Part shown: piece by piece, positions 24,604 through 48,463 of the stretch | Layout of the letters: each line of letters begins with the position of its first letter | Numbering within the stretch: position 1 is the stretch's first letter | NCBI GenBank assembly: GCA_037042915.1 | Contig: CM073196.1 | Location: 1,612,001-1,676,000 of the forward strand | DNA from: Auricularia sp. M13 | Lineage: Eukaryota > Basidiomycota > Agaricomycetes > Auriculariales > Auriculariaceae | Length of the DNA: 64,000 nt | Reading direction: 5' to 3' | Position numbers and translations under genes: made by a program | The notes under the pieces: model-generated | Database searches by the model: none | The model's input: the letters and a program-made list of their open reading frames with translations, nothing else | What the model was told of the DNA's origin: nothing

Positions 24604-24611
24604 GCCAGCGG
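24604..24611 (+). repeat. Left target-site duplication GCCAGCGG
   Basis: The octamer GCCAGCGG is found here and at 48456-48463. Each copy is exactly 10 bases outside the recognisable inverted repeat. Eight-base duplications are what I recall for Zisupton-type elements. Confidence 0.75.
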
Positions 24612-24621
24612 CAGCTGTGTC

Positions 24622-24697
24622 GGGACTTTTCGCTTAAGCGATACCCGCACTTTGTGCAATGCATCGGTTCAGCGATTCCCGCACTTTGGCACGTTTT
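24622..24697 (+). repeat. Left terminal inverted repeat of the KDZ element
   Basis: 76 bases beginning GGGACTTTTCGCTTAAGCGA and ending TTTGGCACGTTTT. They match the reverse complement of 48371-48445 at about 67 positions, with one single-base gap. The inner blocks CCGCACTTTGTGCAA, GCATCGGTT and CCGCACTTTGGCACGTTTT are nearly identical on both sides. Confidence 0.93.
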
Positions 24698-24752
24698 CAG
24701 TGTTCAAACGTCTGTAGTGTAATGGTACTAGCTATCTAATAATATTATTTAA

Positions 24753-25020
24753 ATCGCTTGGAATCGCTGGTAATCGCTTGAGCTCGCTGAAATATGAGCA
24801 CGGACGGTCAGCGCTCGCATGGCAGTGAGCCTCGCTGACAATCGCTGAGCATCGCTGGGGGCCGCTTAAATATGAACATAGTCGGGCAGCACTCACACAG
24901 CTTGGAATCGCTGAATTAACATGGAGCATCGCTGAGAAGCGCTGTGCATCGCTGGACAATGTGCAAATACTGATACCGTCAATCAGCCCCCCGCACCGCT
25001 GAGAATCGCTGCGCATCGCT
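24753..25020 (+). repeat. Left subterminal array, ten copies of ATCGCT
   Basis: ATCGCT occurs ten times in 268 bases, mostly followed by G or GA/GG, plus looser variants (CTCGCT, CCGCT, AGCGCT). It is the mirror image of the array near the right end and probably binds the transposase. Confidence 0.85.
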
Positions 25021-25194
25021 GAGCATAGCTATGCGAGCGACCACGGACCTGCCGCCGCTTACCCCAGCGTCAAGCAATTATGAATGGCTGAAAAATCATG
25101 GAACATGTTAGCGTTGTTGCAGCAGTCGTCATATACAGTCGTTTCACCAAAGCAGAGTCTACGAGAGGGGATTTGACAAAGTATCTACATTACA

Positions 25195-28100
25195 TCACGA
25201 GACAAACGGATTGGCGGGCATCACGGTGGGCATAGTGGGCAGAATCCCAAAGTAATCCTGGAAGCTCTGCGCGTAGAAGCTCCAGACCTCGCGCTCAATA
25301 TCGAGCAACTTCTCCATTGACAAACCCTCTGTTGCAGTGTAGCGCCGGAGGTTGGTAACCTCGCGGCACCTCGGCCACGCGCGCACAATCTTCCACAGGC
25401 TATATATTGAGACCTTGCGGTTCTCGGGGTTTGGGTCAGTGTGAGGCGGCTGCCGTAATCCTAGAGGTACAAATCCGTCTTGCCCGCCCCAGCAATTGAG
25501 CCAGAGAGCTTCGCGGTCCTGCCGCACGGCGTCGTTCCAGATCTTGAGCGACTTGAGAATGTAGGTGTCGAGGTCCCGCAGCTGAAATCGAAACGAGGTT
25601 TCCTGCACCTCCCACACCAAGAAGGCGCGCACGTCGGCCCGAGCGAGATCCTCTTCGGCCAGAGGATGTTGACCGATGAAGAGGGTCTTCGTTGCGCGTC
25701 CATTCGGCTGCTCGGCCTCGTAGCCGTAAACTGGATCGGGCGGCGGCTTATTGCCTTCCCCAGCATCTGCACCCTGCGTTGGGGGGTTCGGCGTAACCGC
25801 AGCTGAGCGCCCAGCGAACACAGCTGTTTCCTACATGCATTGATTAGCAACATTCAGCCACAGAAAGATAAGACGCACCTGACGAAGGGGCACGGCGGCC
25901 ATCCACATCGCCCGAGAGCCGGAGGCCAGGCCATCAGCATCTGCCACTGACTGGTGCCAGGCCAAGTTATTCTCGTCGAGCAGAATCTCGTTGTCCTCGC
26001 CCACAGCCTCCTCCTCCGGTACGCGGGACGATTTGCGGAACAGCAGCAAGCGGCAGCTTTCGTAATCCCAGAACTCATCCCATTCCCCGGTCAGCAGGAG
26101 CTCGCGGTCCGCAGTATCCGCTGCATACATGTGCCCAGTGGTGCGCTCGAAGAATACTGAAGCAGATTTGACCTTCTGCTTCCATTGGTACGGCTCGGCA
26201 AACGCTCGCGCGCTCTTGACGATAAGATCCTCGCCCTCAGAGGGCAGACGTGTATAAGCCATGCTGGGGCGAGCTTCAGCGGCGGCGACAGGCGGCAGAA
26301 CCAAGCTCATATCCGCATTCGCGGCAAGAGTCGACGTGGTGGTGGCGTTGTGCAGCAGAATATGTGTCCTGCTGGTGAGCGAGGCGGCTTTGTTCACGTC
26401 GCTGGCCTTGATGCCCAGGCCCGTGCAGTTCTCCTTGACCCACGACTCATGCTCCGGGGTTGTATGGTACTTGTCGTCAAGAACCTTCCGCCATATTTTA
26501 GCCGATAAACCAATGAAGCCGTCGCGCATGATGCGCCGCAGCCAGAAGTTGCGCAACGCAACCCAGGACCTGAAGACAAAGACCATGCGGCTCTCCTTCT
26601 GCGCAACAAAGTGGTGGAAGGGTGGCATGGTATACTGTAAAGGCTCTCCGAATCGCGCCTGCGGAACTGGGTGCAGAACGTCGGGTGCGCATAGCCGATA
26701 TTCGCGCATTCGAGAGCGGTCCACTGAAGCAGCAACGTGCGCAAGCCATTTTGGCGGTCGCGGCACCCACTCTGGAAGAGCAGGGTGGTCATTGGCCTGG
26801 TGCCCTGGGTCGGTTTCCCAGGTCCGTGCGATCCAAGCCGGGGTGCGTCTGCGGGCCGACGCGACTTGCTACCAGCTAAAGCAAACACGTGAGCAAGGGC
26901 ACCAAAAACAACCCACAAACGTACCAGGGTAACGAGGCTCTTCCTCAGCAAATATTGAGGCACCCTTGACGCTGGTTCCGTTCTTGTTGTGCGTGGCGGC
27001 GATCGTGCTCGAGGACGTGCCCGTCCAGGCCTCGGAGACCGGGATCGATCACGGGAGACTGAGCGTGTTGCGGGCTCACGTCCGCGCGCAGGCGCTTCAT
27101 CGACTGGCTCATCGTCCTGGGGTCGTGGTGTACCCACATGCTCGTCGTCGTCGGGGTAATACGGCGGGGTGGGTGGCCGATACACTACCCCACTCCAATC
27201 CCGTCCCTCAGTGTCTAGAGCGTCCCGCGGCGTCATCTCAACTCGGCGGAAGTGCTCAAACACGCGTGACAGCTGGTCTTTCCTCATATTGGGCGGCATG
27301 GATTTTGAGACGAACCAAACGGGTATCCCGAGACGGTGAAGGAGCGTCACCATCGCGCTGTCCGTGCTGAAGACGCCAACACAGTCGTACATGCGATCCG
27401 ATACAAAGCGTTCATCGCCAACATGATATTTTACATCGAGCCTGAACAATCTGAAAGCCCGGAGTTCGGCGATGCCGCGTTGTATGCGGGTGACGGACAC
27501 AGCGGTCTCGCGGAACGTTGCTGTCAGACTTTGGAAGTCTGACAGCAAGCGGATGCAGTCGTTGATGGTGGTGGTGGGGAGCAAGATGCGCGTCCTTGCC
27601 GTCCGCAGAAGAGGCAGCACGAGCACGTATATCTCGTAGAACGAGTCTTGCAAACGCGCCAGCAATGGCCGCCCCAGGCGCCCGTAACTAGCGCCGTCCT
27701 GCACCGGCAGCCAGTCTTCGGGCTGCATGACATAGCCCGTGATGTTTTCTCCGTACAGGTCACGGTGCGGCTTGACCAGAGGAATCCACGCCATGTGCGG
27801 TGCCGCAGGCTGCCAGTACTGAGGGTACTGCATCGGATCGTGTACGCCCAGCCGGAAGTCTGTGCGCAGGCGCGGGTACTCGTTGATGGGCAGGTCCGGG
27901 ATGGGCTCGCCCGGGAGAACGAGTAGATATACCGCTTGGCCTCAGAGTCGAACGCGACAGCTTGCGGCTTGCAGGGCCATGGATCGTTCTCGAGCCGCGG
28001 GCGCCATGACGCAGAAAGCGTGGCCACGGCCTCCTTCGAGTCGCCGCGGCGCGAATGGTATCCGGGAGCATCCTATTCCCGACAAATCAGTCTCATCCTA

Positions 28101-28471
28101 ACAGTTGAGCGGTATGCATACCTGCTCCTCGGCAGCAGGCACAGGCGCGTCTGCAGAGTGCGATCCACCGTGCCCGTCATCCTGAGAGAATGTGAGCAGC
28201 GCGCCCATCGGCTGCACTTATGGATGCAACCCACCTGCATGTTCACGTCGTCGGCATCTCCACCCACATGGATATCGTCGAGTCCAATCTCGATTTCTTC
28301 GGCTTGGGTGCTGGCGGCGGCAGCAGCGGCGGCGGCGGTCGCGATATTGCCCTCGTGATGCTGGATGCTTGTATCGCCGCCATGGTCACCCATGTCGACG
28401 CCGCGCGGCGCGATTGACCCCGGGGCGATCGCCAGCAAGTCGTAAATGTCGGGTTCGAATGGGTTCTGCAC
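25195..28471 (-). CDS. Large protein of unknown function carried by the KDZ element
   Basis: A multi-exon gene that I cannot assign to a named domain. It starts MQNPFEPDIYDLLAIAPGS, has an Ala run and an acidic DDIHVGGDADDVNM stretch, then a short exon DDGHGGSHSADAPVPAAEE. A long globular exon follows (PQYWQPAAPHMAWIPLVKPH, SRVFEHFRRVEMTPRDAL) with an Arg/Ser/Pro-rich, nuclear-looking segment (26,930-27,080). A second globular exon is 25,870-26,780 (EWVPRPPKWLAHVAASVD, VFVFRSWVALRNFWLRR, GEWDEFWDYESCRLLLFRK), and the last exon (EALWLNCWGGQDGF, DIEREVWSFYAQSFQDYFG) ends NPFVS. Codon use and clean exon joins suggest a once-functional protein of about 950 residues. Proteins of this look recur in agaricomycete genomes as unknowns. 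The link to KDZ biology is by position only. Confidence 0.72.
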
Positions 28472-28779
28472 TATGCGTCAGACGGGCCCAGCAGCAGACA
28501 GCTAGGACAGTACACACTGCGGCCATCGTGTGTGCAATGCTTGAGCTTGAGATGTCAGGGCAATCAGGCAGCTGGGAGCTGCATATGGTTAGATATTCGC
28601 TTTCGCAGATGATCATCCTCCACGGGTCTGCCATGCATGCCTTGGGCCCACCTGCTGCCCATGGTGAGAAGGGGCATGCATGTCGCGCGGCGAGCGGGAG
28701 GCACTCGCCCCACGCGACGTGATACTTCGCCCAACTGTTACGCACGCCCGGTCACGATCTCCTGCTCTCCCCCGGTATG

Positions 28780-29480
28780 ATGCTTTGGGTCCCTGCGTGG
28801 CCGCAGTGTCTCAGACTCGCCGCGCCAGGGGTGCCCGTCTGCCGCTCGCTGCGTGCGCGCTGCGGTCTCCAGCTCTCCCGGCCCACTGTGACAGCCACGG
28901 GTTCAACGGACCGCGCCGTAAACATCTGCTACACGGCCGTGGCGGCCGCAGCATGCTCGCCGTGCGCCTGCTGCCGGCCTGCTGCTCTACGTGTGCGCGG
29001 CCATGGTCTGCGGCACGTCCCCACGCCCGCGGCGGCCGTCAGCCATTCGTTCGTGCGCGGAGACCGTCTTCGCCTCTCCCTGCCCGCCGTGACCATCCCG
29101 GGCTCGACGTGCCCGCCCGTATACATCTGCCGCACGTATGCGGCGGTCCATGCTTGCTGTGCGCGCGGTGACGATCTGCAGCTCGTCGCGCGCACGGTCT
29201 CAGATCCGCCTCGCGTGACAAGACCATCGGCGCTCATCGCGCGCGCAGTGACTGTCTTGGGCTCACTGGGGACCAGCTTGCGCTCCCCGCCCCCGCAGCG
29301 GCCGTCAGCCGCTCGTTCGCGCGCAGAGAGTGCGTGGCTATGCCAAGCTCGACGCGTGCGCCCGTAAGCATCTGCCGCACGTCCCCCGCGGCCGCACCAC
29401 CCTTGCCCGCGTGCTGATGGTCGCCAGGCGTCCCGCCCGCCGTCAGTGCCACATGCTCAACTAGGGCTGCCTTCTGACGC
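28780..29480. repeat. Degenerate tandem repeat, about three units of 200-260 bp
   Basis: Shared blocks GCGGCCGTCAGCC(A/G)(T/C)TCGTTCG at 29,033 and 29,297, and (A/T)(G/A)CATCTGC(C/T)(G/A)CACG at 28,921, 29,125 and 29,367, appear in the same order. Copies are heavily diverged, which suggests an old array. Confidence 0.5.
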
Positions 29481-31106
29481 GCGTGCAGCGTTGGTCTTGG
29501 CCTCGCCCAGCCCGCCGTGGAAACAGTCTCACACCACACACACTCGCGCGAGCGAGAACTCGAGCCAACCCCGGCAAACGAAAATAAGACAACACACCTT
29601 TAATGCTCCAAGTGAAGAGCACAATAATTTCAGAGCCGGGGGAGACGCTGACCCTGCGAGGTTTGCACGCTCTTGCCGCTGTGGTCGTCGATGAGAAGCG
29701 GCACCAGCACCAGCACCAGCTAGCAGACCTACCGTAGGATCTGGCGAAGAAATGTGCCACCACTCTCGAATGAGAGTAGCAGCGAGTGGGCGGGACGTGG
29801 ACACGGCCTTGCAGCCTGGGGTCGAGCACGACGCGCACGCCTGCGCTGGTGGTGGAGTGATTGCACACCCCGAATGGAGGTGCGCAGACGATGTCGACGC
29901 GCACGAATGCACGCGCCAACGGATCCTGGAGCTGGTCTTCGCGGCGCGGGCGCGGCGGGCGGTGGGTGTCGGGCGCTGGGTGCTGGGTGCTGGGGCGGGA
30001 CTTGGCGCGAGGAGGATGAGTTTCGGCCGGAGTCCGAATCGGACTTGGCCAATCTTGCTCTCGTCCCGCCAAGTCCCGCCGCCACCCCACCACCCACCGG
30101 CGCCGGGCTCATTCGAGTCCGGCGCCATCGACACACTCTGCGCCGCTGGCGCTGGCCGCGCCGTCGTTGGGGCTGCTCCCATTCGGGAGCGGTCGATCCT
30201 TCCGCACGGGGCGCCAGCCCCTATCAGCTGGCCACGCAGGCCATCGGCCACGATCGCCTTGTCGAGGGCGGCTGCCATTCGGCAGCCGTCCTCAGTGCCC
30301 ATGGGCCATGGTGCAGCTTCGTTATGGGGCCGCGATGTAGCACGGTTCGCGAGTCGAGACCAGGTAGGTGCCACATTGGTGATCTCGCCGTCGTAGTCGC
30401 GTCTGACCATGCCATTAATTTACAGCCGCTGTCCAGGCCTCGCAGAGTCTCAGGGGTCATTGTCGAGGCTATTCACGAGGTATGTAACGTTCAGTATATT
30501 TGACCATGGCGCGCGCTCAAGTCCTTCGACGTCTCATCTCACCAGCGCCAAGGCCTGTACCAGGTATGTTAACCGTACATATTTTGTAGCTTTTCGGCCC
30601 GCTCTCACGCAGTGACATCTCAGGCCTGCTGCCATCGTCTCCGAAGAGTAGGTATGCATCCATGTGACCGTTCGGTGTCCGGCATTGCCCTCATGCACAG
30701 CAGGTCGGCGCCGGCCATCGTCTCACATTCTAAGGTCACCTGTACTATCTCCCTGCCCATACCTGTGCTCACGCTCATGTAGCCTAGGCCGCTTGAAGTT
30801 CTCATTAAGGTATGCATCTTATGTCATACGGCAGATCCTCACGCCCGCAGCTGCAGGTCCCGACTCGTCGATGTACTCGTTCTTTGTAGTTTAACCCACA
30901 CCTCTCATATCCTCTCGCCCCGTGTTTTTGTGTCGTGTTTGTTTGTATCATATCCGCATTATTACTCTAGAGCTCTTCTCGCTCGGCCGAAGGTCCGTGC
31001 TGGTGCCGGCAACTAAATTGTCCGGCAAACCCGCTGAGCACAATCCAGTCGAGCACAGGTTGGTCAAGTCCCGACTGCCCAACACCAAAGTTCTCGCGCC
31101 AGCCCA

Positions 31107-31225
31107 ACTCCAAAGCGCCCGCGCCCGAGGTTCTGACAAAGCTCAAGTCCGAAGCGCCCGCCCGAGTCCGGAATGCCCAAGTCCGAAGCGCCCGCAAGTC
31201 CGAAGCGCCCAAGTCCGAAGCGCCC
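31107..31225 (+). repeat. Short tandem repeat around AAGTCCGAAGCGCCC
   Basis: AAGTCCGAAGCGCCC or close variants occur about six times at 17-20-base spacing, the last three nearly perfect. It lies in a stretch without a supported gene. Confidence 0.75.
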
Positions 31226-31386
31226 GGCAACTGGCCGGCGAACTCGGTAACTCATGAATGGCCGGCCACATCCCGCTCGCACAAGGACTTCGTCTTACGG
31301 GCGGACCTCTCGTGTGCGCTTGAGCTCGGTGGCAGGCAACAAGGTAATGAAATTATTCTGAAAATATTCCGATAGCTAATAGCGCA

Positions 31387-33262
31387 CTACGCAGTGATCA
31401 TATGGAGCGCGCCGTGCGCGTCGCGGCGGATATACGGCGGGAGTTCGCGCATGCCGTCCAAATTCAACAGCGGCAGGTACGGCTGGAGTTTCTGAATGCG
31501 GTGGTGGACGAAGGGCAAAATCTGGTCCACCTTGTCCTCCATCAACGGTTCGTCGCCGTCCAGCGCAAACGCGTTGCGCATCACCGTCAGCTCGAGCTCA
31601 CGCTGATCGCCCGTCAATAGGTCAAGCGTGGCACGGTCAAGCTCAGGAATGGCGGCGTCCTGCTCGGCGGGCACGATACCATAATCGAGCGCAATGCCGT
31701 AGGCCAATCGGGGAAGATGTTCTGCCAGACGCTCGAGTCGAGCGTTGCGGATGGCATCGACCAGCCGGGCAATCACACCGGCCTGGTCGCCTGATAGATC
31801 GTCGAGTATGTCCCGGTATTCGTACCTCCACAACGTGAGCTCATCGGCGCAGCCAGTCAATAGGTCAACCGTCGCCGCGGGGACGGGCGGATCGAGGTGG
31901 AGGTCCCGCGGAAAATGGTTGAAATAGTCGAGCGTCACTGGCAGTGCTTCCATCCAACCGTCCTCTGAGCGGTTGTTGTCGTCGTCGTCGTCCTCAAGCA
32001 TGTCAACATCGCCGTCGTTCGACCCGTTGTCTTCGTCGCTGGGCTGATAGTCAGGGTCAGCTGGATCGTCCGGTGCTGCCGCGGCAGGTACGAATCCGAG
32101 TGGGAGTGGCAGCTCGTCGAGCTCTGGGGCATTGTTGAAAACTCTACGCGGCGCTGCACCACCCCATACGACGCGATCCAGCCAGGTTGAGTCAAAGCCG
32201 TCATCCGGATTGGGGTCCGTGTTACCGTGCTCGCACGCCTCTCGCAAGTTCCAATTCTCGACGGGCGGCTGTCGTATTGTACCGCGGCAGGTCGGGCACT
32301 GAGGCGCCCTGTAGAGGAAGCGACCGTGCTGCGAATGAGCTTCCTGCAGACAGCTCAGATGGAAAGGGCCGTGTCCGCATCGCAAGCTACATCTCTGGTA
32401 AGTTCACTTTGCGCGCAGTACGAACATAAAACTCACCTGTAATATCTGTGCACCCGCCGCGCGCAGAAGCACGTTAGGCTGTTCTCCTTGACCTCGCGCT
32501 GCAAGTAGTTAGCATTGCGCCTGGTCTCGATATGTCTTTGTGTACGTACCTCGGCCGCCAGATCGGCTTTCACTTTCTCTAACTCCTGCCGCAGTGCCGC
32601 TAGCTCCGGCGCGTGTTGCTGCGTGTCAACCTCCTGCGCCGCAAGCCGTAAGTAAAACATACCAACTATAACGCTGTACTCACCATTGTTTCCAGCGCGA
32701 GAAGCTGGGGATCAAACTCCTGCGAACAGAACGTAAGTGTCAAGGCCGTGCCACTTTGCGTTGCCTAACCTCCTCGCTCTCCCCATTAGCCTCAGCGGCT
32801 ACAGCAGCGTCGCCGTCGCCAGCCATTTTCTCGAGACGAGCGTGCATGTGAACCGCGGAACCCTCGCTCACCGAGACCGCCACGACGTCGTCCTGTAGTG
32901 CTGTGAGTACAATCGTCATGCGCTGGAGACCTGTGCACTAACGTCGTCTTTTTCAACCAGGATGCCGTTGACCAAGTCGAACCCGAAGTCGCGAGGACTC
33001 GTCCCATCGTTTGTCTTTTCGTCCTCGGTATCGGAGATCTCGATGACGGTGCTCGGCTTGCGGATGCGACGCGAGGTGGCCGACGTCGAATGCGCCTGTG
33101 TGGGAACTTCATCCTCAGAGTCGGACGAGATCATGATCACGTCCGCGGGTGGCGTCTTGGCCTTATTCTATAAAATATTGTAAGTACGACTTCGCCGCGG
33201 CGACGCCAGTATATTGATGCGCGTACCTTGCGATTTGCAGCCACACCGTGCCCTTCGCCTGC
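31387..33262 (-). CDS. RING-like zinc-finger protein with coiled coil and acidic stretch (KDZ cargo)
   Basis: Exons read from the right: VAANRK joined to NKAKTPPADVIMISSDSEDE, a Ser/Asp-rich stretch with IEISDTEDEK (SUMO-binding-like), FGFDLVNGILVEKDD, AAEANGESEEEFDPQLLALE, then a coiled coil ELAALRQELEKVKADLAAE. Next come SLTCFCARRVHRYY and LRCGHGPFHLSCLQEA...APQCPTCRGTI, whose Cys/His order (C-x-C, C-G-H, H-x-x-C, C-P-x-C) is RING-like, so ubiquitin or SUMO ligase activity is a reasonable guess. A very acidic linker (DVDMLEDDDDDNNRSEDG) and a helical C-terminal region of about 190 residues follow, ending DAHGALHMITA. At least six exons. The first exon and start codon were not found; the right limit given is the last exon edge I could support. 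Confidence 0.65.
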
Positions 33263-33911
33263 CTGGAAAACTGTCCATCAACTGCGGTTCGTGAAGTCGA
33301 CAAGAGCATACCTGGCTGCCAGTGTGTAATGCCGCACGTACGTGTGCGACCTGCACGAGCTAGTCAGCTTGCTGAACAGCTATAGCAGAGACAAATCACC
33401 GTGAGAGCAATAGGCTTAGCAGACGCTGCGCGTGCTGTTGTGGCGCCGCGACGATGAGAGGCTTTGGACTCCATGGGTGCGCGTTCGATCTGCGGGTCTG
33501 ACGATGAAGTCCGCAATTCGCCATCGGCATATATATTTGTTGCGCCTGCTGTAGCTGCTCCTGTCTGCGAGCCGCAAATGTTTCACACGCTACCTTGGCG
33601 ATCGTCTGCGCAGTTCGGCAAGCGCCAATCTCCATGCGTTCCGTCTGACCTTTTCTCCGGTCAAAATCACAATCGTCTCCTTTGATGTCGGCCGAACGAG
33701 CCCGTCGAGGACCCCGAACGGCAAAATCAGTCACGGTACATCATCGTCGACAACACACATGCATTCATCCAACTCTGGCTCAAGACCTGAAACCCTGGTG
33801 AGTACAGTCGAAGCGCCCAGGTGTCTGACTGACCTCATCGTCAGGTCCATTTCCTCCCGCGCGGCCCGACAGCATTACCCCTCTCACTCGAGGGGGTGCT
33901 CGGATGGGCCA

Positions 33912-33918
33912 TATAAGA
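33912..33918 (+). promoter_or_regulatory. TATA-like box before the TET/JBP-like gene
   Basis: TATAAGA lies 39 bases before the ATG at 33957. This is a close but acceptable distance for a fungal core promoter; it would place the transcription start very near the start codon. Confidence 0.3.
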
Positions 33919-33956
33919 GCGCTCACCGTGAAAGGTCGCCACGCTCCCCGCCTACG

Positions 33957-36424: not shown

Positions 36425-36604
36425 TTCATGTAAAAGCTTTTAGAAGAAACAGACACTGCAATTATCGTCCAAGCGCTATTATGTTGAGAAACTTTACTTA
36501 ATGGTAAGTAAGTACTTGCTCAATTAACCTCTCATAATCTGAGCCAACTTGTTATACTCAATTTTTTTTATTTTATTTTGAATATGCAGATTTATATGAT
36601 GCGG

Positions 36605-37380: not shown

Positions 37381-37466
37381 AGCGTAGCCCGCCGTGCGCG
37401 GGTTTATATACCTTCAAGTATAGGGGCGCACTAAGGTCCTTTACTAGCAATCACATGCTGTCATAG

Positions 37467-38603
37467 TACTTCTGTAAAAACGGATCTGCTCCGGAGCCGG
37501 TATCAGCCGTTCCGAGCGCTCCGACGCTCTGGCGACAGCCCAGAGCAGCCAGAGCGTGCAGAGCACTGGCTCGGAACTGGGTGCAACACCATCGCAATTG
37601 CAGTCGAGGATGCTGGTGTCAAGATGTCGAAAAAAATTATTATAGTCAAATAAGTTCAGAACGCAGTAAAAACACGATTCCACATGGTCTCCAGAAATAT
37701 GATTTTTTGAGACTTGTCGCTGACTCCGGGAGTCCTTGCGGCGTTTGACGAGGCTGAGGTCGGACCTTGAAAACCTTTCAAGATCCGCCCGAAGGTCCGG
37801 TCACATATGCAGGCCGGGCTCTGAGCGGAGTCCCAAATTGCCCTCTTTCTTTTGCTCTCATGTCAACGATGTCCCGCTGGCACCGCCGCCGCAACTAGTT
37901 CCCGGGATTACACGCTCTCTCTTCTGGCCTCGTTTACGACTGTGTCTGCTCAGTTTTGGCTTTGGCTGTTGGCTTTGGGCTGTGGTCTCAGTGCTTTTTA
38001 CATGATGTCTGGCTATGGTTCTCGTATTTGCTGGGTCTTTTGTGCTGCTCTGGCTGTCTGGTCGCTGGGTTCTGGTCACTGGGCTCTGGTCGCTCGTCCT
38101 TACTAACAGTTTTATTCAGATCCTGCTCGCTGATACCCATCAAGACGAGACGTGTCTGCGCAGCGTTGGTATCTCGGTACGTTACTGGCACTTACCATCT
38201 GGACCGTTTACTGACGTCCCACTTGTCATAACCCCAGTCTGTATGGAAGGACTTGGAGTAGGATACCGTTCCTAGTTGTCGGGGGGCGCAGGGGCTATGA
38301 CGGCGCTGTTGGTCGCTGGGCAGCTCCGACCGCCGCCCAGTCAGCACACGCTTTGTTCTTCATAAATATACAATAGATCATTTTTTCCATGTATTTGAGT
38401 TTGACACACTTAAATGAGGTGAAAACGCGTTGAGCAATAAGAAGTGCACACTTGCTGTCGATGTGTGCTCTGACGTCCTCCGGCGCATCCCAGAGCGCGC
38501 CAGAGCAGAGACGGGTTGCTCCGGAACCAGGGTTTATCTTCCGCGCTCTGCCGCTCCGGAGCGCGCAGAGTGCGCCAGAGTAAAATCCATTTTTACAGAA
38601 GTA
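37467..38603. mobile_element. Nested 1.1-kb element with 19-bp inverted ends
   Basis: The left end TACTTCTGTAAAAACGGAT (37467-37485) matches the reverse complement of 38585-38603 at 18 of 19 bases. Just inside both ends lie GC-rich subterminal stretches with GCTCCGGAGC and CAGAGCG/CGCTCTG motifs in inverted arrangement. The centre (37,700-38,300) has no transposase, only a CTCTGGCT/TTTGGCT-rich low-complexity part. It looks like a non-autonomous DNA element that moved into the KDZ cargo, right behind the stop codon of the gene at 38610. No clear target duplication was found. Confidence 0.6.
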
Positions 38604-38609
38604 TCTAAT

Positions 38610-39400
38610 CTAATCAATGGCTATGACATCAGGCAGGGGCGCATCGACCTGAGTCGCCAGCTGAATCCAAAGTCCATCCGGGCAGCGCCCAGCTATAACA
38701 AACGCCTGCTTCACCTCGGGCGGTGCATACTTCCAGGTGCGTGCTGCCGCCGTATACAGCGCAGGGGACCAATCGCAGCGCGGAAACGCAGCGAGGAAGG
38801 CCTGTTTTAGTGTCTGCTGCGGCTGACGCTTGCAGCAGGCATCCATACCATCCGCCATGTCCACGGTGTACACGAGCGGGAACGCCAGCCGGCGCACAGC
38901 GCGCAGCAAGACGGTACGGGCTCCGCGCAAGTGTATGATATCGTCCATGCTGACAGGGAGCCAGTCGTCCACGCCCGCGTCAAAGACCTCCATAGTATTA
39001 AGAACAACGTTGTGAAGCTGAAGGCCGACGGTGTGGACGCAGACGACCGTGCGAAGGCTGAACGAGTCGTGGTGTACGGGATATCGCACCGTCATCGTCT
39101 GCGCCTACAAAAGTAAGCCGGCGGCGCGGGCGTCTGCAACAGGTTGCATACCGCTGACCCTTGCTCTGCATCCACCGACAGCACGATCTCGATCACAACT
39201 GGCTCGGTGGTTGGTGTGTCAGATGCTGGCTGACGGCGAACACCGTGGCCCGTCGCTGGGCAGACGGCGAGCTGACAGCAATGGATACACTGTCGCAGAC
39301 GACATCGATGATTGCCAGGCTTCGGGTGCGGCCGTCGACGGCGGCAGTCTGCGCCATCGCAGACGATGCGCTGCGGTGGGCCCTGTACGATGGGGCGCAT
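38610..39400 (-). CDS. Cys-rich protein of unknown function (KDZ cargo)
   Basis: Two supported exons, joined across an intron with GTATGC donor and TTTTGTAG acceptor (about 39,111-39,160). The N-terminal part MRPIVQGPPQRIVCDGADC continues with more Cys and His (GNHRCRLRQCIHCCQLAVC, ATGHG), a zinc-ribbon-like spacing. The second exon is a globular domain: VLSVDAEQGSAAQTMTVRYP, VVCVHTVGLQLHNVVLN, VDDWLPVSMDDIIHLRGA, LAFPLVYTVDMADGMDACC and PEVKQAFVIAGRCPDGLW, ending PLPDVIAID. I do not recognise the family. More upstream exons are possible. The Cys pattern resembles that of the plus-strand neighbour at 40039, and the two may be parts of one system. Confidence 0.55.
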
Positions 39401-40038
39401 GCGACGCGGGTCGACAGAGCCGAATGTCTGCAGGTTCCAAGCCGCGCATATTGTGCCGTATCGAGGACACTATATCAGGTGAGCTGCGAGCTTGTATTAC
39501 GGGCATGCACAGTGCTCACAATTACTATAGCATGCCCGGCGTATTCTGGGTAGCTGTCGACGGTGGCCATGATGGTCGGATGGCGCTGTCGACAAGCAAG
39601 CTCTATGCACACAGCGGCTCGAGGTATACCTCTGGGGACATGGCGAGGTACTGTGACCAGCGGCATGGTGGGAAGACTTGGCTTCGCAGCGCACGCGGTG
39701 TGCTGGTGAGTGTTTGATAATTATGAGCCCAAGACCTCGCCCGATTGACCTGTACGCTGTGCTAGGACCCCGAGGTTCATTACATTACCCACTGAAACGT
39801 GAGAGAATCTCCCATCTCAAGGGATCGACGCAACCTGGTCCTTAAGCGATATCTGTATTCAACGGACTTCGGTCAGGCTCATGATCCCACCGGGACCTGC
39901 CGTGATGCGCGCGTTTTGACCTCTCGACGTGACCCAGCCCCAGCGTGACCTCGCGCAAGCCCCCATTGACTTATATGGCGTCTGCGTTCTGGCACCCACA
40001 CAGTCATTCCCCACCCCGCTGGCCCGCGAACGTGCAAC
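39401..40038. other. Divergent gap between two Cys-rich cargo genes
   Basis: Lies between the leftward gene ending at 38610 and the rightward gene starting at 40039. A plus-strand frame runs through 39,161-39,717, but its codons mirror the minus-strand gene and it has no motif. Upstream exons of the leftward gene may hide here. Confidence 0.4.
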
Positions 40039-41330
40039 ATGCCGCTCCCTTCCATCATCAGCGACGAGCCCGACGTCCTCTGCCCGGTGACGGAATGCGA
40101 CCATGCTGCACGCTGGTACCGAGTGTACCGTGGTACAACGCCGATGAAGGTCGCCGCGGTATGTGCAGCGACGCTCGTGTGTGACCCAACATGCTCACTG
40201 TCGCCGTGTAGTGCAAGGAGCACGGTATAATCTACCAGCTCTCGTCTGCTCGCACCGTCATTCCGTTCAGCTTTGCACACGCTCGCACCCCAAACGAAGT
40301 CCAACTGGCCCTCGACAACCCAGATTGTTGCCTGATCTGCCGCCGTCGCAGCGACGTTCACTGCTCATTGATGTTGTGCTGCGAGTGCTGTGCCATCTTT
40401 CGCGTCCGCTGCCGCCTCCGCACCCATACTGCCCGTGGCCAAGCCATGTACCCGGAGCGCCCCGCCAAACCTCTCCAGGAACTTGACGTGCGGGATTTGC
40501 AAGTTGAGCACCGCATCAAGCTACTTGTATCCTGCGCTCATGTCTGGGTGGTGCGTACTCCGTCCCTGCTGTCGACGACGTTCAGCTCATCCTTCCCTCC
40601 AGGGCAGCCCAGTCCGCCCAGCTGGCCACAAAACCTACTCCATCACAATGTGCACGCGTGCCAGCCATCGCAGGTTCACCTACTACCACGAGCTCGCCAC
40701 CAGTGATTGCACCATGCATGACCTTCGCCTCGACAACATTACCCTGGACCGTATCTACTACAACGACGCCTACGAAGAGGACGACCCTCCTTTTGCTGGG
40801 GATCTCGCATTCTACAAAGGGCATGCTATGTACGAGGAGTTGAACACCCACACCGCGGTGCTACGGCTTGTGGTGTACGTCGACGTCGCGGAGCTCGGGC
40901 GCCATGTCAACGATCTTCGACCGGAGGAGCTCGACTACAATCGAGATTGGGACACCCTCGGCAACGTCTTCGCTCACGTGCAGTGCGTCTTCCAGTCTCG
41001 CAACTTTGTATGTGCATTTTTCCCCCTATCCCTTCATGGTTGCCTGATTATTCACAGATCCAGGACGTGGATGCCGAGGGCGCGGATGGCGAGGCGGATT
41101 GGTGTGTTGTGGAGCTACCTCGCCGTCGGCTCAGGGTGGCCGACTGCCGATTCTATCTCAAGGACTTCTCCGACGAAGCCCGCACCATCCTTGGCATCGA
41201 AGATATTGCTGACGACTGCATCAACGACGGTCCCGACGTGGCTCTACAGTACGATCTCTATGATGAGGCCGAGGGGGGTGAGGTGACGGAGGTCACAGAT
41301 GTGCAGATGAAGCTGGTCGTTCGAACGTAA
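40039..41330 (+). CDS. Cys-rich protein of unknown function (KDZ cargo)
   Basis: Four or five exons: MPLPSIISDEPDVLCPVTEC and ARWYRVYRGTTPMKVAA join CKEHGIIYQLSSARTVIPF. Cys-dense segment NPDCCLICRRRSDVHCSLML then CCECCAIFRVRC suggests one or two zinc-binding knuckles. After AHVW comes GSPVRPAGHKTYSITMC, then a globular part (RFTYYHELATSDCTMHDLRL, LVVYVDVAELGRHVNDLRPE). A final exon after IQDVDAEGADGEADWCVVEL has DFSDEARTILGIEDIADD and ends VTDVQMKLVVRT. All joins keep frame with 45-60-base introns. Family unknown to me. Position inside the KDZ element and zinc-knuckle look could suit a nucleic-acid-binding helper, which is inference. Confidence 0.62.
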
Positions 41331-41672
41331 AAGATAGAGAGATATTCTCCCCGTAGCATCCATCAATTGCAGTTCTTCTGAGGCAACCTGAAACATCAAT
41401 ATGTTAAGCGGCACAGTGGGCCTGAGTCCTAAGCGAAATCAAATGCCGACGTAGCTTACTACACAATCATAGGAACAGGATTTGCGTGCTTCTCTGCCAA
41501 ATCAACTGCGAAGCCCGTGGGAATCGGTGAGGTATGTACGTTATCATCTCGATGGACCGTGCGGCTGAATGCTAAATGCCGGTTGACTCGGTCAATGGAT
41601 TATGCGGGGACGATTGTTTCACAGGATATCATAAATGCATGCGCCCGGCGTGGTGTTCTGTGGAGTGCTCAG

Positions 41673-43928
41673 ATGTCGCCACCAGGTGGTGGTGGACCCG
41701 ATGATCCGCCCTCGTCGACTCTGCCAAAGCGCAGGGGCAAGCGTCACGTACAGCGGCCTATCTGGACGGTCGGCGATCCCAATCTCGTCGTCACCCCAGC
41801 ATGCATGAAAGAGCTCAAGCCTGAGTTGTACAAGTTATACCAGTTGAAGCGCTCAGGTGCATCAAAAGCAGAAGTACGCATATACACTTCCCAGCACATC
41901 ATTCCCATCTGGGAGGCGCACGGGCTGCACGTTGTGGACAAATTTCCTGAGCTTTATGACGCGGACTGCAAGTCGCAAGACGCTCGCACGGTAAAACTGT
42001 TTGCTTGCTTTTATGCTCCTAGCTGACAGCTGCGTAAGGCATTTCGGCAGGACGTTCGTAACAACTCACTCGCAGACTGCGTGTGGATCAAGATTTACGA
42101 ACAGTCGCTCAATGCGTCGAACAAGAACACGCGGTGAGTATTTTCTAAATTCTTTACCCTCGTCGTCCGTGCTAACGGGGGCCAGCACTGCAGCAACACC
42201 CGAGGGTGCCCTTCAGGCGGGTCAGTCTCGGCCGCCAACGACGGCTGATAAAGGTCGGGCGGATAGCGCAAGAGAGCTATATGCGCGGATGATCAAGGCC
42301 GACTTGGACCGTGAAATTGCCGAGAGGCTCGCCGCAGAGTTTGACGCTGCGGATTGGAACCAGGAGCGGATTCCGGTGCGAAATCGAGTTCTTTCTGACC
42401 GATGGGCGCTGTTGGACACGGAGGAGAAGATGCGCTATGCGGGGGCCGCACAGGAACTGTCCTCCGAGCGAAGTTCGCCCGCCAACTTGGAGGCGCAGGA
42501 GGAAGTGTAAGCATCGAGTCAATGCATTTCCCTGTCTAATTCGATTATTAGGATCGAGCAAGAGCTTATCCAAAAAATCGCAGATCTTATGGGAAAGCTC
42601 TCTTATCGCTCCACGAACATGGCCGTTTTCCAGCTCGCGCAACTCGATCCTACAACCGGCAACGTCGTAATCAAGTCGTACGTTTGTACTCTAAATACTT
42701 TCTATTATGTCTTACATGGGAACAGACTACAGGGTATAGGCGGGAAAGGCAAGGTTGGCGAGTGGCTCAAGAGCACAGAGCATAACCGGCACGATGAAGC
42801 TCTAAGAGATTACTGCATGCGGGTTTTACCAGGTATGGTCTTTCTTGCAGGTGGAAGTGGTCGCTGACATCTTTGTAGGTATTCACGCAGCCGAAGTCAA
42901 GCGACTGTCCAAAGTAGCAGTGCGCGCTACTCGCGGTAAGTTCAGTACGGGTTGCTTTGGCATCTCATCTCACGCCGAGAATATACAGGCTCAAGCTCAA
43001 TTGAGCAGACACCCAAACCGCCAGACCAGCAGGCGCTGCTGCTCCCGCAGACTCCGGTGCTGCCGGAGCAAACGCCCAGACCGCCAGATGTGCAGACGGT
43101 GCCGCTGCTTCAGCAGACGCCTGAGCCACCGCCGGAGCAGACGCCTGAGCCGCCGGAGCAGCAGATGCCTCAGCCGCCGCCGGAGCAGCAGACGCCCGAG
43201 CCGCCGCCCCAGCAGACGCCCGAGCCGCCGCCCCAGCAGACGCCCGAGCCGCCGGAGTTAACGCCCAAACCGCGGGATGTGCAGATGGTGCCGCTGCTTC
43301 AGCAGACACCGCAGCCGCCGGAGCAGCAGACGCCCAAGCCCGCGGAGCAGCTGACGCCGCAACCGCCGGAGCAACAGACGCCCATATCGTCGAACAGGCA
43401 GATGCTGGAGCCCCGGGAGCAGCAGACGGTGGAGCAGCACCAGACGCCTGTGCGCTCGAGGTTCGGATCGCAAGTCGTAAGTCGGGTTGTTCTAAGTTTA
43501 ACATAATCGTTGATCGGCTGCAGCTTCCGACGCCAACTGCGTTCCCCAGCACACCCGGCGGCAGCCCTTTCCGCACCGTAGACCCGGAATCGCCTCTCAC
43601 TCCCATACCCGCCGAATCAACCGCTGTGGGAAACGGAAAAAAGTATGTATTTTCTGGCAGTACACCCAGTGATTTTAAAGTCTTCACCAGGCGCAAGGTC
43701 AAGGATGGCAGCGATGCGCCGTTGAAACGGATGAGAGCTGCAGATGCCCAAACTTCCGATCGTACGATGCGCTCACGTGCGCATAAGGTACCGGCTCGGC
43801 CACGTGAACCGGCACCGGCGAGGAACATCGCTCGCACCGTCAAAAATACAGCACCTGCAACCGCAGGTAATGGACCTCAAAGGCCCAAGAGAGTATGCAC
43901 TACAGGGGTAGATTACAAGGATAGCTAG
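41673..43928 (+). CDS. Protein with Pro/Gln/Glu-rich repeats, unknown function (KDZ cargo)
   Basis: Starts MSPPGGGGPDDPPSSTLPKR with a basic, nuclear-looking KRRGKRH. Early exons look globular: LVVTPACMKELKPELYKLYQ, VRIYTSQHIIPIWEAHGLHV, DCVWIKIYEQSLN, then helical ARELYARMIKADLDREIAER and LMGKLSYRSTNMAVFQLAQL. The long 3' exon (42,994-43,490) encodes about 20 imperfect repeats of QTPEPPPEQ, with the longer phrase DVQ(T/M)VPLLQQTP twice. The tail, VKDGSDAPLKRMRAADAQTS and ARPREPAPARNIARTVKN, is basic and Pro-rich, ending VDYKDS. About eight exons. The pattern suggests a low-complexity scaffold or chromatin-associated protein; nothing enzymatic is visible. Ends about 240 bases before the transposase start. 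Confidence 0.6.
42994..43450 (+). repeat. Coding minisatellite (QTPEPPPEQ-type repeats)
   Basis: Tandem in-frame repeats of about 21-30 bases built on CAGACGCC(T/C)GAGCC(G/A)CC inside the Pro-rich cargo gene. A 180-base higher-order unit containing GTGCCGCTGCTTCAGCAGAC is present twice (43,100 and 43,290). Confidence 0.75.
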
Positions 43929-44167
43929 GCTGGAAAACATAAAACAATGTTCTGGTTTTTACAATCTCGGCCGATGGGCCGTGTGTTTCCGAGAGAATTC
44001 AAAGTCCGGACTTCCCTTTCGTACTCGCCGTACCTGCGGCCTGCTAGGCTCTGTTGCCGCCAGCACGCTTGCTGCATCCGCATTCGTGGGTGTAGATTAT
44101 ATGCGCCGCCATTCGGTGGTGTATTACATCGTGACCAGGACTTCGGCTCTCGCTGTGTTTTTACAGG

Positions 44168-47100
44168 ATGCCGCCTCGCAGCAAGCGTCCCCGTATCCGA
44201 GCGCCAGAGCTCACCCAAACTGTCTATACAGTCCAAACTACTGCTAGCTCTTCTACGTCTGTCGATGTAACTTCCGTTCACTCCCCTACCCGTACTTTAC
44301 CATCGCTTTGCCATCTTTCGAGTGTCACGAGTCCCAAGAAACGCAAGGCTGCCGAAGTGTATGTACATAGTATAGAGTACAGTGCCAGGGAGGGTCCGTT
44401 ACCAGCGGGCGATGATACAGCCTTGCAGCCAGCTCCTAGCTCGGCGCCTCACCGGCAAACCACAGGGCGGGCCAGGGCGTGGGTACAACCCATGGCAAGG
44501 TACGCTGTGCTTTCGACTTGCGTGATACTTTTACTGACACTGAGTGTATAGACTACATCGGAATTCAACAAAGAATTCGAAAGGGCGCGAGCACAGTTGC
44601 TGGACGGTATGATGAGCTTGGAGTGGAACGAGGATGTTGGCAAAGTCTGCGACTGCAAAGAGCATGGACGTCGTCTTTATCGATGCCTTGACTGTTTTGG
44701 ATCCTCCGTCCACTGTCATACCTGCTTCCTTGAGCGCCATGGGAGTCTGCCGCTGCACGCCATCGAGAAATGGAACGGGTCGTCATTCGAGCCCGCCGCG
44801 CTAGGCGATCACCCAGAATTCAAGGTACATCTTGGACACAACGGCGCTGCGTGCCCGACAACGTTGATGGAGGTTCAAGCCTGTGCTGAAGTCTTGCCTG
44901 AGCATCGTTACACTCACTCGATGACCGTGGTACACCTGAATGGTCATCACACCTTGAACTTCATCCTCTGCCGGTGTCGCGGCCCTCGACAGGAGCTGCC
45001 CAGCCTGGTGCATCAGCTCATGCGGGCACGCATCTTCCCAAGCACGTTCACTCGACCGACCGTCGGCTATACGTTCGAGCTTATGATGCATTGGCACTTG
45101 GAGTCGCTCCAGAGCAAAAAATCAACTTGGGACTACTGGCAGGCCGTGTGTCAGAAAAATAAACGCGGCAAGGAGAGAGTGAGTTTACATCTTCAGGATA
45201 TTATTTTTTGGCTCATACCCCGAGAGAAAGGCTACCATGCATTTCTTCGAGCCGGACACTTTTGGCGCGTACTTAAAATGCAGCTTCAAGCGGTCAGGCT
45301 CTCGGAATTGACGGGCATCTCCCCGCCAATCGTTGGCCTGGCTCGGTCATCGTCGCTTGCCCTGCGTGTCCAGAGCCAGAGTTCAATCTGCAGCCGGGCT
45401 GGCATGACTTGGCCAACGACGAGAAGCACAGGTGAGAGATCAGGCCTCCAGGATTCATGTATTCATGCGACACAAGGTTCAAATTCATCCTGTGGCACGG
45501 TACAGACGCGTCGTTCAAGGTTTATTTGAAGGTCAAACTTCGGGACGCTGGGGACACTTCCTTGCTCGATGGATGCGCTTTCCTTCCTCGACGCTCAGAT
45601 TGGGAAGCATACATGTCCAAAAATAGCGATATTTCGCAGGCATGACCATTTATTCATCAAATGCCTAAGCAGTACTAATAAACTCTCAGGAGGTTGGATC
45701 GTGTCCTGGATACGACAAGATGCATAAAATCCAGGACCTCAGCAATCGAGAGGTTTCGGGTTTGTCTGCTGTGTGCTGCATACGTCACAGCTGCTTCCCG
45801 GCGATGGGAATGGTAGACTTGAAGCTGGGCGAAAAGTACGTCTGAGCACAGAGATTCGAGGCTGAAAAATGCTAATGTCTTCAGGTATTATATGATTGAC
45901 CATGGCTGGGTATACGCCCAAGGACCGAAGCCTGACACCGACTTACCCCGCGCGCTGTCGAGTGACAGAGCCTGCTCTTTGTGCATCAACATCATGCGGC
46001 GTTTGCGAGACGATTCCCGACCGAGAGGACGTCCAGCAGATCGCGAAAGAGCTCGTGTGGGTTATACCCAAAATGCATATACAGGGTCATTGTGAGAAGT
46101 GTCAATATGTGTATCATCTTCTGTACACACCGGGTGCTGGGAGAGCGTGCGGAGAAGGGGTTGAGCGGCCGTGGGCAGAAACAAAGCTCGCGGCGGCCAT
46201 ATGTCGGGACGCGAACGCCGGTCATCGTCATGACATCCTCAACGACGTTCATAATTTCTGGAATTTCAACAAACTGGTTGGACTTGGTGAGTGCGGCTCG
46301 ATTTGCTGTTGGCAAGGACTTAGAATATTTGTAAGCAAAATATCTTTACTCCCAGGCCGCAGAAGCACACAAACACATCGCCGTGTCCAAGGCAGAATTC
46401 GAGGAGTTTTCGAGCTCCATTGATCCTGCGCGCATAGCTGCCTGGGAAGCAGAGTATCCGACGGAGACAGCGGTGGTCAAGGACGATACTATTCGCGGGC
46501 GATACTGTGTTGACCCTGCCAACCGTGAAGTTCAAACACTAATCTGTGAAGAGCCAATCACTTACGCACTGATAGGCCCTAATCACAAGGACGTCATTGC
46601 AAGGCTTGAACGGGAGGAGCGTCTTCCTGGACAGATCCGTAAGAGCGGTGTTGTGGGCATGATGGCTAAAGGCGTGCAGTTAGCAGAAGATCAGTACGTG
46701 CCTTTCACAATTTACCGTTTACAGCTCAACGTGCGCAGAGTGCGACTACGTGGGAAAGCCGCCAACGCACGAAAGAATAAGCAGGACAAGGAAGCTCAGC
46801 AGAGCGTGAGACAAAAGCGTCGTAACTTGAGCGAGCGCATAGCCAGCTTTCGCCGACTGCAGCTCAGGCATATGCCTTACCTTGCCGAGGCTATTACGGA
46901 GGGTGAAATCGACTCCGGTGATTCCGAAGACGAGGAGAGTCTCGAGGAGACCGGTTACGCTGAGGATGTGCCGTTGATGCTACCCTCCTGGTTCAGCGAG
47001 GAGGAGCGGAAGGAGAATGGCGTGCCAGATCGCTTGGTCCACATGGAGCGAGAGCTTCGAAAGGCACATGCTGAGGGCACGCTCTCGAACCTGCGATTCA

Positions 47101-47961
47101 GCATTCGACTTTTCGGCTCCAATGCTGATGAAGCTCGAGATCAGGTGGACAGCACGGGTGGTAAGACGAGAGCGAGAGCATACCTAAAAAAAATGAAGTC
47201 CAAGCAAAATGTCTTTGTCAATATCTATTCGGAGCATCTAAGCGCGCTCAGGGCCTTGGGTCTGAGCCGGGAGGACACAACCTATCAGGATCTGGACACT
47301 ACTATGCTGCGCGCTCACGCACCCGTCGACAAACCTCAGCCACTGAATGTTGGCAAGTCCAAGGGAGATGTTGCTTGGTTCTGGCGAGGGGAACTGGACG
47401 TTGGGCTTGTTTCCAAGCAGGAGAAAACCAAACTTGCTCTTCTGACAGATGACGGTGCGTGCAACGGACAGAGTTGTCTTTGCAAAATTAACATACTGCA
47501 TAGACAACCGCGTCCGGTATTTTCGTTTGCAAGGCCATTATCGGCGCTGGTCTGAACAGATGTCGATTGTGGGCGCAGAATTTGGGCGCAGCGAACGGCA
47601 CTTTTCTCGAATGCGTTCTATTTGGCAGGCCATCGGTAACCAGCAGGGCGAGAAAGCGGAGGAGATGGAGCATACTGCCGCAGCAGCGGCAGCAAACTAC
47701 GGCCCCGATGTTCCGCGGTGGCAGCGTCAGCCCGCCGATGAGCTGCGTAGCCGGCAAATTGCACAAGGGGCTGCAGCCTATGCCTTCCAGAAGGCGTCAT
47801 TTTATGGCGCTATGTTGGAGGAGGTCAAGCGGCTGAGAGCTACAGCCTGTGCTCAGTTCAAGGTAGCCGAAGGGTGGAATGAGTTCGACTCTGACCGTGA
47901 GTGTATGCTCAGCCCTCAGCATGCGTACGAGCTCATATTATCTATGCAGTGTACTCCGTAA
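44168..47961 (+). CDS. KDZ transposase (CxC2 type), apparently frame-broken once
   Basis: The element's own transposase. A Ser/Thr-rich N-terminus (MPPRSKRPRIRAPEL) leads to the CxC2 zinc cluster VCDCKEHGRRLYRCLDCFGS, VHCHTCFLERHGSLPLH. Then come IFPSTFTRPTVGYTFELMMH, ACPACPEPEFNLQPGWHD, WHGTDASFKVYLKVKLRD (first core Asp), VSGLSAVCCIRHSCFPAMG, SSDRACSLCINIMRRL, WVIPKMHIQGHCEKCQYVY, GEGVERPWAETKLAA (core Glu) and HRHDILNDVHNFWNFNKLV. A long helical C-terminal region follows (46,383-47,450), ending LILSMQCTP. About ten exons. Conserved RLRDDS and PDREDVQQIAKELVW lie in different frames about 46,015-46,025 with no room for an intron, so one indel is likely, or a sequence error. First conserved SYD is here SSD. 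Confidence 0.88.
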
Positions 47962-48370
47962 ACAAAGATAGCGTTTCGGCTTGAAATCGGAGGCTATTTA
48001 TATTTTAATGTCATATGCGAGCGGACGGTCGGTGTAGTTAGCAGGGATATTTAGCGATTACTAGCGATGTCTACCGATCTTCACCGATTTTCAGCGATTT
48101 TGTGGTACAGCGATCACAAGCGATGGTGAACGCACCGGCTTTCCCTACACGCCGCTTTCCACCGATGCCCACCGATTTCGACCGAATATCCTCATCGGTG
48201 AGGCTTATTGTTCTATCCGTGCTGATTCCGTAGCTCAGCGATGCGAAGCGATGTCAACCGAAACCCAGCGATCACAAGCGGCCCAAAACGCTGTCCTCAG
48301 CGATGCCCAGCGATTTATACTGTAGTAACGTGTCTCTATCTACACTCGGATTACATTTACTTACTTTTCA
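47962..48370. other. Right subterminal region of the KDZ element
   Basis: Non-coding stretch between the transposase stop and the right inverted repeat. It holds the AGCGAT array and is otherwise AT-rich and without frames of note. Confidence 0.7.
48053..48314 (-). repeat. Right subterminal array, ten copies of AGCGAT
   Basis: AGCGAT occurs ten times in 262 bases, with another six or so ACCGAT variants between. Count, span and distance from the inverted repeat mirror the left array almost exactly, in opposite orientation. Confidence 0.85.
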
Positions 48371-48445
48371 AAAACGTGCCAAAGTGCGGCTTTCGCTTAA
48401 CCGATGCGTTGCACAAAGTGCGGCAATTGCTTAAGCGAAAGTCCC
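48371..48445 (-). repeat. Right terminal inverted repeat of the KDZ element
   Basis: 75 bases whose reverse complement starts GGGACTTTCGCTTAAGC and ends TTTGGCACGTTTT, matching the left repeat at about 67 positions. The ten bases between it and the target duplication (CGGTACCATT) do not match the left ten. Confidence 0.93.
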
Positions 48446-48455
48446 CGGTACCATT

Positions 48456-48463
48456 GCCAGCGG
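48456..48463 (+). repeat. Right target-site duplication GCCAGCGG
   Basis: Same octamer as 24604-24611, again 10 bases from the inverted repeat. It fixes the element's right edge at 48455. Confidence 0.75.

Follow-up and report, generated by a model that had tools for sequence, protein, structure and literature searches.

A 23.8-kb Kyakuja-like KDZ transposon with 10-bp phased terminal sites and a probable TET/JBP cargo gene in Auricularia sp. M13

The TET-bearing Kyakuja elements of Agaricomycetes are the described systems to which the locus characterized here is most readily compared. The accessible text of Kojima (2025; PMC12730594) describes 7-bp duplications and CA...TG ends in two Kyakuja families, Kyakuja-1_LB and Kyakuja-2_LB of Laccaria, which it presents as having no terminal inverted repeats (TIRs), and places the AG type in Agaricomycetes. 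The Auricularia element likewise combines a KDZ transposase and probable TET/JBP cargo with a 7-bp duplication and CA...TG ends, but differs from the Laccaria families, as they appear in that text, in its 86-bp TIRs and its 18 and 17 terminal sites, many of them in a 10-bp phase. KDZ1-KDZ3 of Cryptococcus neoformans also combine long TIRs with a KDZ transposase and its cysteine cluster. In the available portion of their description, those elements are ~9-11 kb in size, with 139-241-bp TIRs, 8-bp (KDZ1) or 4-8-bp (KDZ2 and KDZ3) duplications and a CxC1 cluster, whereas the present element measures 23.8 kb, carries several cargo genes and has a CxC2 cluster (PMC12810828). In Pleurotus ostreatus, according to an excerpted account, a CxC2-coding region precedes intact KDZ elements, as it does here (PMC7641404). 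Starships are likewise large fungal elements with cargo genes, reported at 42-606 kb in Tremella fuciformis in the accessible part of the source, but they carry a tyrosine-recombinase captain gene in place of a KDZ transposase (PMC13066641).

In the current study, we analyzed a 64,000-nt stretch of Auricularia sp. M13 DNA (assembly GCA_037042915.1, contig CM073196.1, positions 1,612,001 to 1,676,000), referred to as the window. A single pair of ends flanked by a 7-bp duplication encloses mirrored arrays with 10-bp phasing, a KDZ/CxC2 gene and five or six other gene-like units (Table 1). We consider it likely that the whole is a large Kyakuja-like KDZ transposon of the cut-and-paste type, with phased ends, that arrived in a single insertion, and that this copy is now probably defective. 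The joint presence of KDZ, CxC2 and a TET-like gene, taken with the placement of the AG type in Agaricomycetes, would by itself point to a basidiomycete host, probably one that forms mushrooms. All gene borders within the element were set by eye, without a gene finder or RNA.

Table 1. Features of the element, in window positions
Feature	Position	Strand	Remarks
Target site duplication, left	24605..24611	.	CCAGCGG
Element	24612..48456	.	23,845 bp, 5'-CA...TG-3'; ungapped inverted-repeat register 24612/48456, 70/88
Left TIR	24612..24697	+	25-nt unit twice, 34 bp apart: 24630-24654, 24664-24688
Left subterminal array	24753..25030	-	16 of 18 left sites, other 2 in TIR; AGCGAT in minus-strand reading, mostly 10-bp steps
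Large cargo gene	25198..28477	-	~900 codons, at least 4 exons by eye; no Pfam match
RING-like cargo gene	31390..33164	-	Borders by eye; zf-RING_2 E=0.0019, 18.9 bits, below cut-off 27.3
TET/JBP-like dioxygenase gene	33954..36421	+	Catalytic exon at 36025-36421 with a frame switch at ~36,025; gene borders by eye
Possible cargo gene, doubtful	38613..39469	-	Cysteine-rich stretch; codon score 9.9 minus vs. 11.4 plus; no Pfam match
Cargo gene, no recognised family	40443..41327	+	Borders by eye; codon scores 19.7, 17.8; no Pfam match
HMG-box-like gene	41675..43928	+	Divergent stretch 42226-42507; tail of repeats rich in proline/glutamine; unity and borders judged by eye
KDZ transposase gene	44169..47958	+	Borders by eye; CxC2 44825-45157, KDZ ~45.49-46.26 kb; frame switches at ~45,298 and ~46,005
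Right subterminal array	48043..48314	+	15 of 17 right sites, other 2 in TIR; AGCGAT/ACCGAT, mostly 10-bp steps
Right TIR	48371..48456	-	Two copies of the corresponding 25-nt unit (48380-48404, 48414-48438), 34 bp apart
Target site duplication, right	48457..48463	.	CCAGCGG

The edges placed by an earlier note on this DNA were confirmed: GCCAGCGG lies at both, with inverted repeats directly inside. On the plus strand of the window it occurs exactly twice (24604-24611 and 48456-48463), and on the opposite strand seven times. The inverted repeats, put by the note at 75-76 bp and about 88% identity, were recovered by blastn as a 76-bp pair with 88.2% identity (24622-24697 vs. 48371-48445). When the TIRs were compared ungapped from the element ends, 70 of 88 positions were identical. 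As a background, 150 random pairs of 500-bp stretches from the flanks were searched for their best inverted match over 88 nt, which averaged 40 identities and never exceeded 49. The TIR core, CCGCACTTTG, is confined in the window to the four terminal unit positions, and therefore no internal or nested copy of the ends is seen. The left TIR also contains a perfect palindrome, CGCTTAAGCG (24631-24640), which is the only copy in the window and is absent from the right TIR. Folded as single-stranded DNA, the left TIR strand (24612-24700) had a z of -2.4, and 4 of 200 shuffles folded as well. The ends of DNA transposons need not be identical at insertion, and the divergence of inverted repeats is no clock. 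The suggestion that TIR divergence makes the element "not brand new" thus falls, as its two ends were possibly unequal from the start, and we dropped age estimation from this source for want of a valid clock for DNA transposons.

Host genes lie on both sides. Ten ORFs were scanned in each flank, and a known family was recognised in four on the left (Asn synthase, RhoGEF, Swi3 and N-terminal methyltransferase) and seven on the right (F-box-like, SPT8, SRP54 and four SPT6 exons), the F-box-like match being just below its cut-off. Since the right edge of the element falls ~0.1 kb past the stop codon of the F-box-like ORF, the insertion appears to be intergenic. In the left flank, a diverged minisatellite of 23-24-bp units (24335-24542) ends ~70 bp before the element.

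A KDZ transposase with a CxC2 cluster had been proposed for the right end of the element, and both domains were indeed found in its right part above their cut-offs. KDZ (PF18758) scored 78.2 bits in one frame (E=9.6e-22; cut-off 26.6), and CxC2 (PF18803) scored 67.9 bits (E=1.1e-18; cut-off 27). The gene therefore carries both hallmarks of the KDZ superfamily, the PF18758 domain and a CxC-type cysteine cluster. Near 46,005, the KDZ domain is divided between two reading frames. Its right half alone scored 83.7 bits, and the two halves joined with an X scored 120.6 bits over profile positions 4-217, compared to 81.3-83.1 bits when the right half was joined to a shuffled left half (four of four controls). 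The left half alone had no Pfam match at E<=10 and was detectable only when joined to the right. Three possible GT-AG introns (49, 64, and 88 nt) exist at this switch, each of which removes domain-coding sequence. The other switch, at ~45,298, is not bridged directly by any GT-AG join of 35-260 nt among the matches listed, although these include a 170-nt GT-AG intron (45269-45438) that could skip the whole segment that follows. We take this segment to be coding, given its open frame and a CPxCP motif known in relatives. Of the two switches, the one near 46,005 is well supported and the one near 45,298 is likely. An in-frame stop near 45,433 was rejected as a sign of decay because a 45-nt GTGAGA...AAG intron accounts for it. 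Further along, the junction at 45640-45689 allowed non-GT joins only, with a GC-AG intron as the best; the intron presumed there has a GC donor in an otherwise good context (CAG/GCATGA).

The view that this KDZ element carries TET/JBP-like cargo was also supported, by a Tet_JBP (PF12851) match in the last exon (36025-36421; E=0.00049) that lies below the curated cut-off (19.8 bits vs. 34.9) together with the HxD...H Fe(II) triad of TET/JBP dioxygenases. The exon reads, in order, HRD ... ITHGN ... RQSWTFYTAGGLFRW, with the triad assigned by eye to HRD and then ITHGN, and we regard a Tet_JBP domain in the cargo as probable. In the accessible text of Kojima (2025; PMC12730594), the triad has HxD in TET/JBP types other than PE, and HxE in PE. 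Relative to the Kyakuja TETs given there, with Gly/Ser five residues and Asp 11 residues past the first His, the present protein has Asn and Cys, an ungapped count that serves as a lead only. The read-through protein scored 18.0 bits against Tet_JBP, no gain over the 19.8 bits of the last exon, and had no PDB relative at E<=10; PDB sequence searches of TET-like and RING pieces returned nothing useful. Structure prediction of the exon gave a mean pLDDT of 43, too poor for a check of the double-stranded beta-helix. Across the switch at ~36,025, any GT-AG or GC-AG intron between 35 and 260 nt long would put HRD out of frame with the upstream exons. The intron presumed at 35976-36024 has a GC donor (CAG/GCGAGT) and does not restore the frame.

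The element had been called whole-looking, a description that holds for its ends but not for its genes, where the switches at ~45,298 and ~46,005 in the transposase and ~36,025 in the TET-like gene have no convincing intron. In view of these switches, the copy is probably non-autonomous and no longer self-mobile. Some of the switches have non-ideal intron alternatives, so that the loss of function is no more than probable. We weighed the prospect that the same element is intact and possibly active, its frame switches being base-call errors or unusual introns. The three short GT-AG joins within KDZ and the 170-nt intron that could bypass the segment after 45,298 speak in its favor, as does the GC donor at 45640-45689, with which non-GT donors may be in use. 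However, the joins near 46,005 would delete 49-88 nt of domain-coding sequence, and the four shuffled controls indicate that the KDZ profile continues through the switch; for the TET-like gene, not one join in the range considered retains HRD in frame. Junctions of the host genes SRP54 (four) and SPT6 (five) were used as a control, and eight of the nine had GT-AG candidates while the ninth needed no frame change. This was a permissive test on parts of two genes, with anchors picked by eye, and it argues against many base-call errors while leaving room for some. We hold an intact element to be unlikely, though it is the alternative that we take most seriously, and we retain the reading of a probably defective copy.

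The subterminal regions are the most distinctive part of this copy. Ten copies of AGCGAT/ATCGCT per end, in opposite orientation, had been claimed, and our counts agree: the first 440 bp hold 10 copies of ATCGCT and the last 441 bp the same number of AGCGAT, as opposed to means of 0.31 and 0.19 and maxima of 3 and 2, respectively, in 1000 dinucleotide shuffles. When up to one mismatch to AGCGAT is allowed, the count rises to 18 sites within 440 bp at the left, where they read as the reverse complement, and to 17 within 441 bp at the right. Pairs of these sites spaced exactly 10 bp apart number 10 on the left and nine on the right, whereas no shuffle out of 1000 exceeded a single pair (means 0.026 and 0.019). 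With exact sites alone, each end still has four such pairs (random mean ~0.2, maximum 3; 2000 placements). This helical phasing of the end sites is the most telling new feature of the element. We found no report of 10-bp phased end sites in KDZ elements in the literature covered, which did not extend to Iyer 2014 or the Kojima 2025 supplement. CAGCGATK at 10-bp steps, together with the 34-bp-spaced pair in each TIR, is a candidate binding-site code. The CpG of the motif is intact in 33 of the 35 array sites, and the other two carry changes other than C-to-T or G-to-A. No footprint of CpG deamination was seen; observed/expected CpG is 1.10 in the element and 1.09 and 1.15 in the flanks.

It is conceivable that the arrays are not binding sites but remnants of a local 10-bp tandem duplication, i.e., a minisatellite, near each end. 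A tandem repeat would likewise yield exact 10-bp steps, and Tandem Repeats Finder flags one short array of period 20 (24752-24789). Yet the identical hexamer appears at both ends in mirrored orientation and in the TIRs too, the bases between sites are far more variable than the hexamer, and site-free stretches interrupt the steps at both ends. A minisatellite origin is therefore improbable in our estimation, and we continue to treat the arrays as candidate binding sites. A functional parallel is offered by the plant CACTA element TgmR of soybean, whose reiterated subterminal motifs are transposase-binding sites; the excerpted report adds that a more methylated line apparently had no effective transposase binding to the subterminal repeats (PMC4219821). 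CACTA elements nevertheless belong to an unrelated transposase group, with 3-bp duplications and CACTA ends.

Beside the transposase, the cargo comprises five genes, including the TET-like gene, and a possible sixth. The earlier note had counted "seven or more," a figure that is too high. The apparent genes at 36.5-37.4 kb stem from a tandem repeat that lacks stops in several frames. The sixth gene is doubtful, its opposite strand scoring as well. A self-trained hexamer scan had favored ORFs at 29.5-30.4 kb (score 69) and 36.5-37.4 kb (score 105). In a host-trained codon scan, the former scored at most 4.9 and the latter were absent among the 45 listed, and with the second also being a tandem repeat, both are doubtful as genes. 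The repeat in question, a minisatellite of 72/138-bp units at 36709-37233, is open in several frames on both strands and mimics a gene. At 29994-30080, a 21-nt inverted repeat with 90% complementarity and arms 45 nt apart occupies the G+C-richest part of the element. The RING-like gene has the top host-trained codon score within the element. Structure prediction for 340 codons of the large cargo gene was unusable (pLDDT 34). HMG_box_2 matched the HMG-like stretch below its cut-off (E=0.0037; 18.3 bits vs. 22.4). A divergent HMG companion was reportedly noted by Iyer in 2014, and the HMG-like gene here fits. Its proline/glutamine-rich tail corresponds to a 24-bp tandem repeat (43111-43254). Downstream of the doubtful minus-strand gene lies a small cluster of direct and inverted repeats (CAGAGYGCGCCAGAG; 38490-38580).

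The mixed orientation of the cargo and the minisatellites between its genes raise the question of whether a smaller KDZ element grew through nested insertions or the chance capture of DNA, in which case its cargo would be passenger DNA with no role; the size of KDZ1-3 of Cryptococcus, only ~9-11 kb in the available text (PMC12810828), points the same way. Nested insertion is countered by the restriction of CCGCACTTTG to its four terminal places, and no second transposase or reverse transcriptase was found in the frames scanned, which did not amount to all six throughout. We judge such swelling very unlikely and regard the element as a single insertion with its cargo.

The length of the target site duplication bears on classification. 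The earlier note read GCCAGCGG as the duplication, which is right in that it matches at both edges; its length of 8 bp gives way to 7 bp under the TIR register. In the best register, position 24612 faces 48456 and the element ends in CA...TG; the duplication is therefore CCAGCGG, and the eighth matching base is a coincidence. Eleven alternative right-end registers (within 48450-48461) gave only 12-30 matches of 88; that ending at 48455, needed for an 8-bp duplication, gave 30 and broke the CA...TG symmetry, and a duplication of this length was rejected. The chance identity of two random 7-mers of the window is 9.35e-5. A Zisupton-type KDZ element is thus highly improbable even with the 8-base match of GCCAGCGG at the edges and the 8-bp duplications and TIRs that the accessible texts ascribe to Zisupton (PMC12730594) and Cryptococcus KDZ1 (PMC12810828), since the register and symmetry it requires are lacking here (30/88 vs. 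70/88). The 7-bp duplication and CA...TG ends of Kyakuja are present, while the absence of TIRs in Kyakuja-1_LB and -2_LB is not matched. On duplication length and CA...TG ends, the element may be termed Kyakuja-like. We stop short of calling it a tested member because it is a single copy with no empty site or relatives found and three weak cargo domains, and because of the unmatched TIR feature. Searches for relatives of four protein pieces (the transposase twice, the large cargo gene and the TET-like exon) confirmed none in viral contigs, and one of the four searched in genome contigs and one in phages (tblastn) likewise found none.

From this architecture, we infer binding, a function for the phasing, and demethylation. 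The protein that binds the two units in each TIR would be the transposase or a partner, possibly the HMG-like protein, and it would also stack on the helix face that the phased AGCGAT sites share. Stacking on both arrays could bring the distant element ends together, whereupon the transposase would cut at CA/TG and insert with a 7-bp stagger. The TET/JBP-like protein may oxidise methylcytosine and so counter silencing, a role that Kojima (2025; PMC12730594), in the text available, proposes for such elements. Since nearly every array site carries a CpG, the ends would be a natural TET target. In this copy, the transposase and TET functions of its own were probably lost by small frame changes, and movement would occur only with the help of a relative. 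By analogy with TgmR, it is tempting to speculate that the ends are methylation-gated docking strips, on which host CpG methylation blocks end assembly until the carried TET-type oxidase reopens the CpGs, although we hold this to be rather unlikely. If true, the demethylase would be linked directly to the code by which the element's own ends are recognised, and not to gene expression alone.

Although elements of this kind are known, the present one is unusual in its size and ornate structure. KDZ elements that carry TET have been delimited in full only recently, as the accessible text of PMC12730594 indicates, and this one supplies precise ends, the length of the duplication, a candidate code of binding sites and a list of cargo. 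With these in hand, how the ends are recognised and what the carried demethylase does become directly testable. The element also suggests that KDZ elements can exceed twice the size of those in Cryptococcus and carry several unrelated genes.
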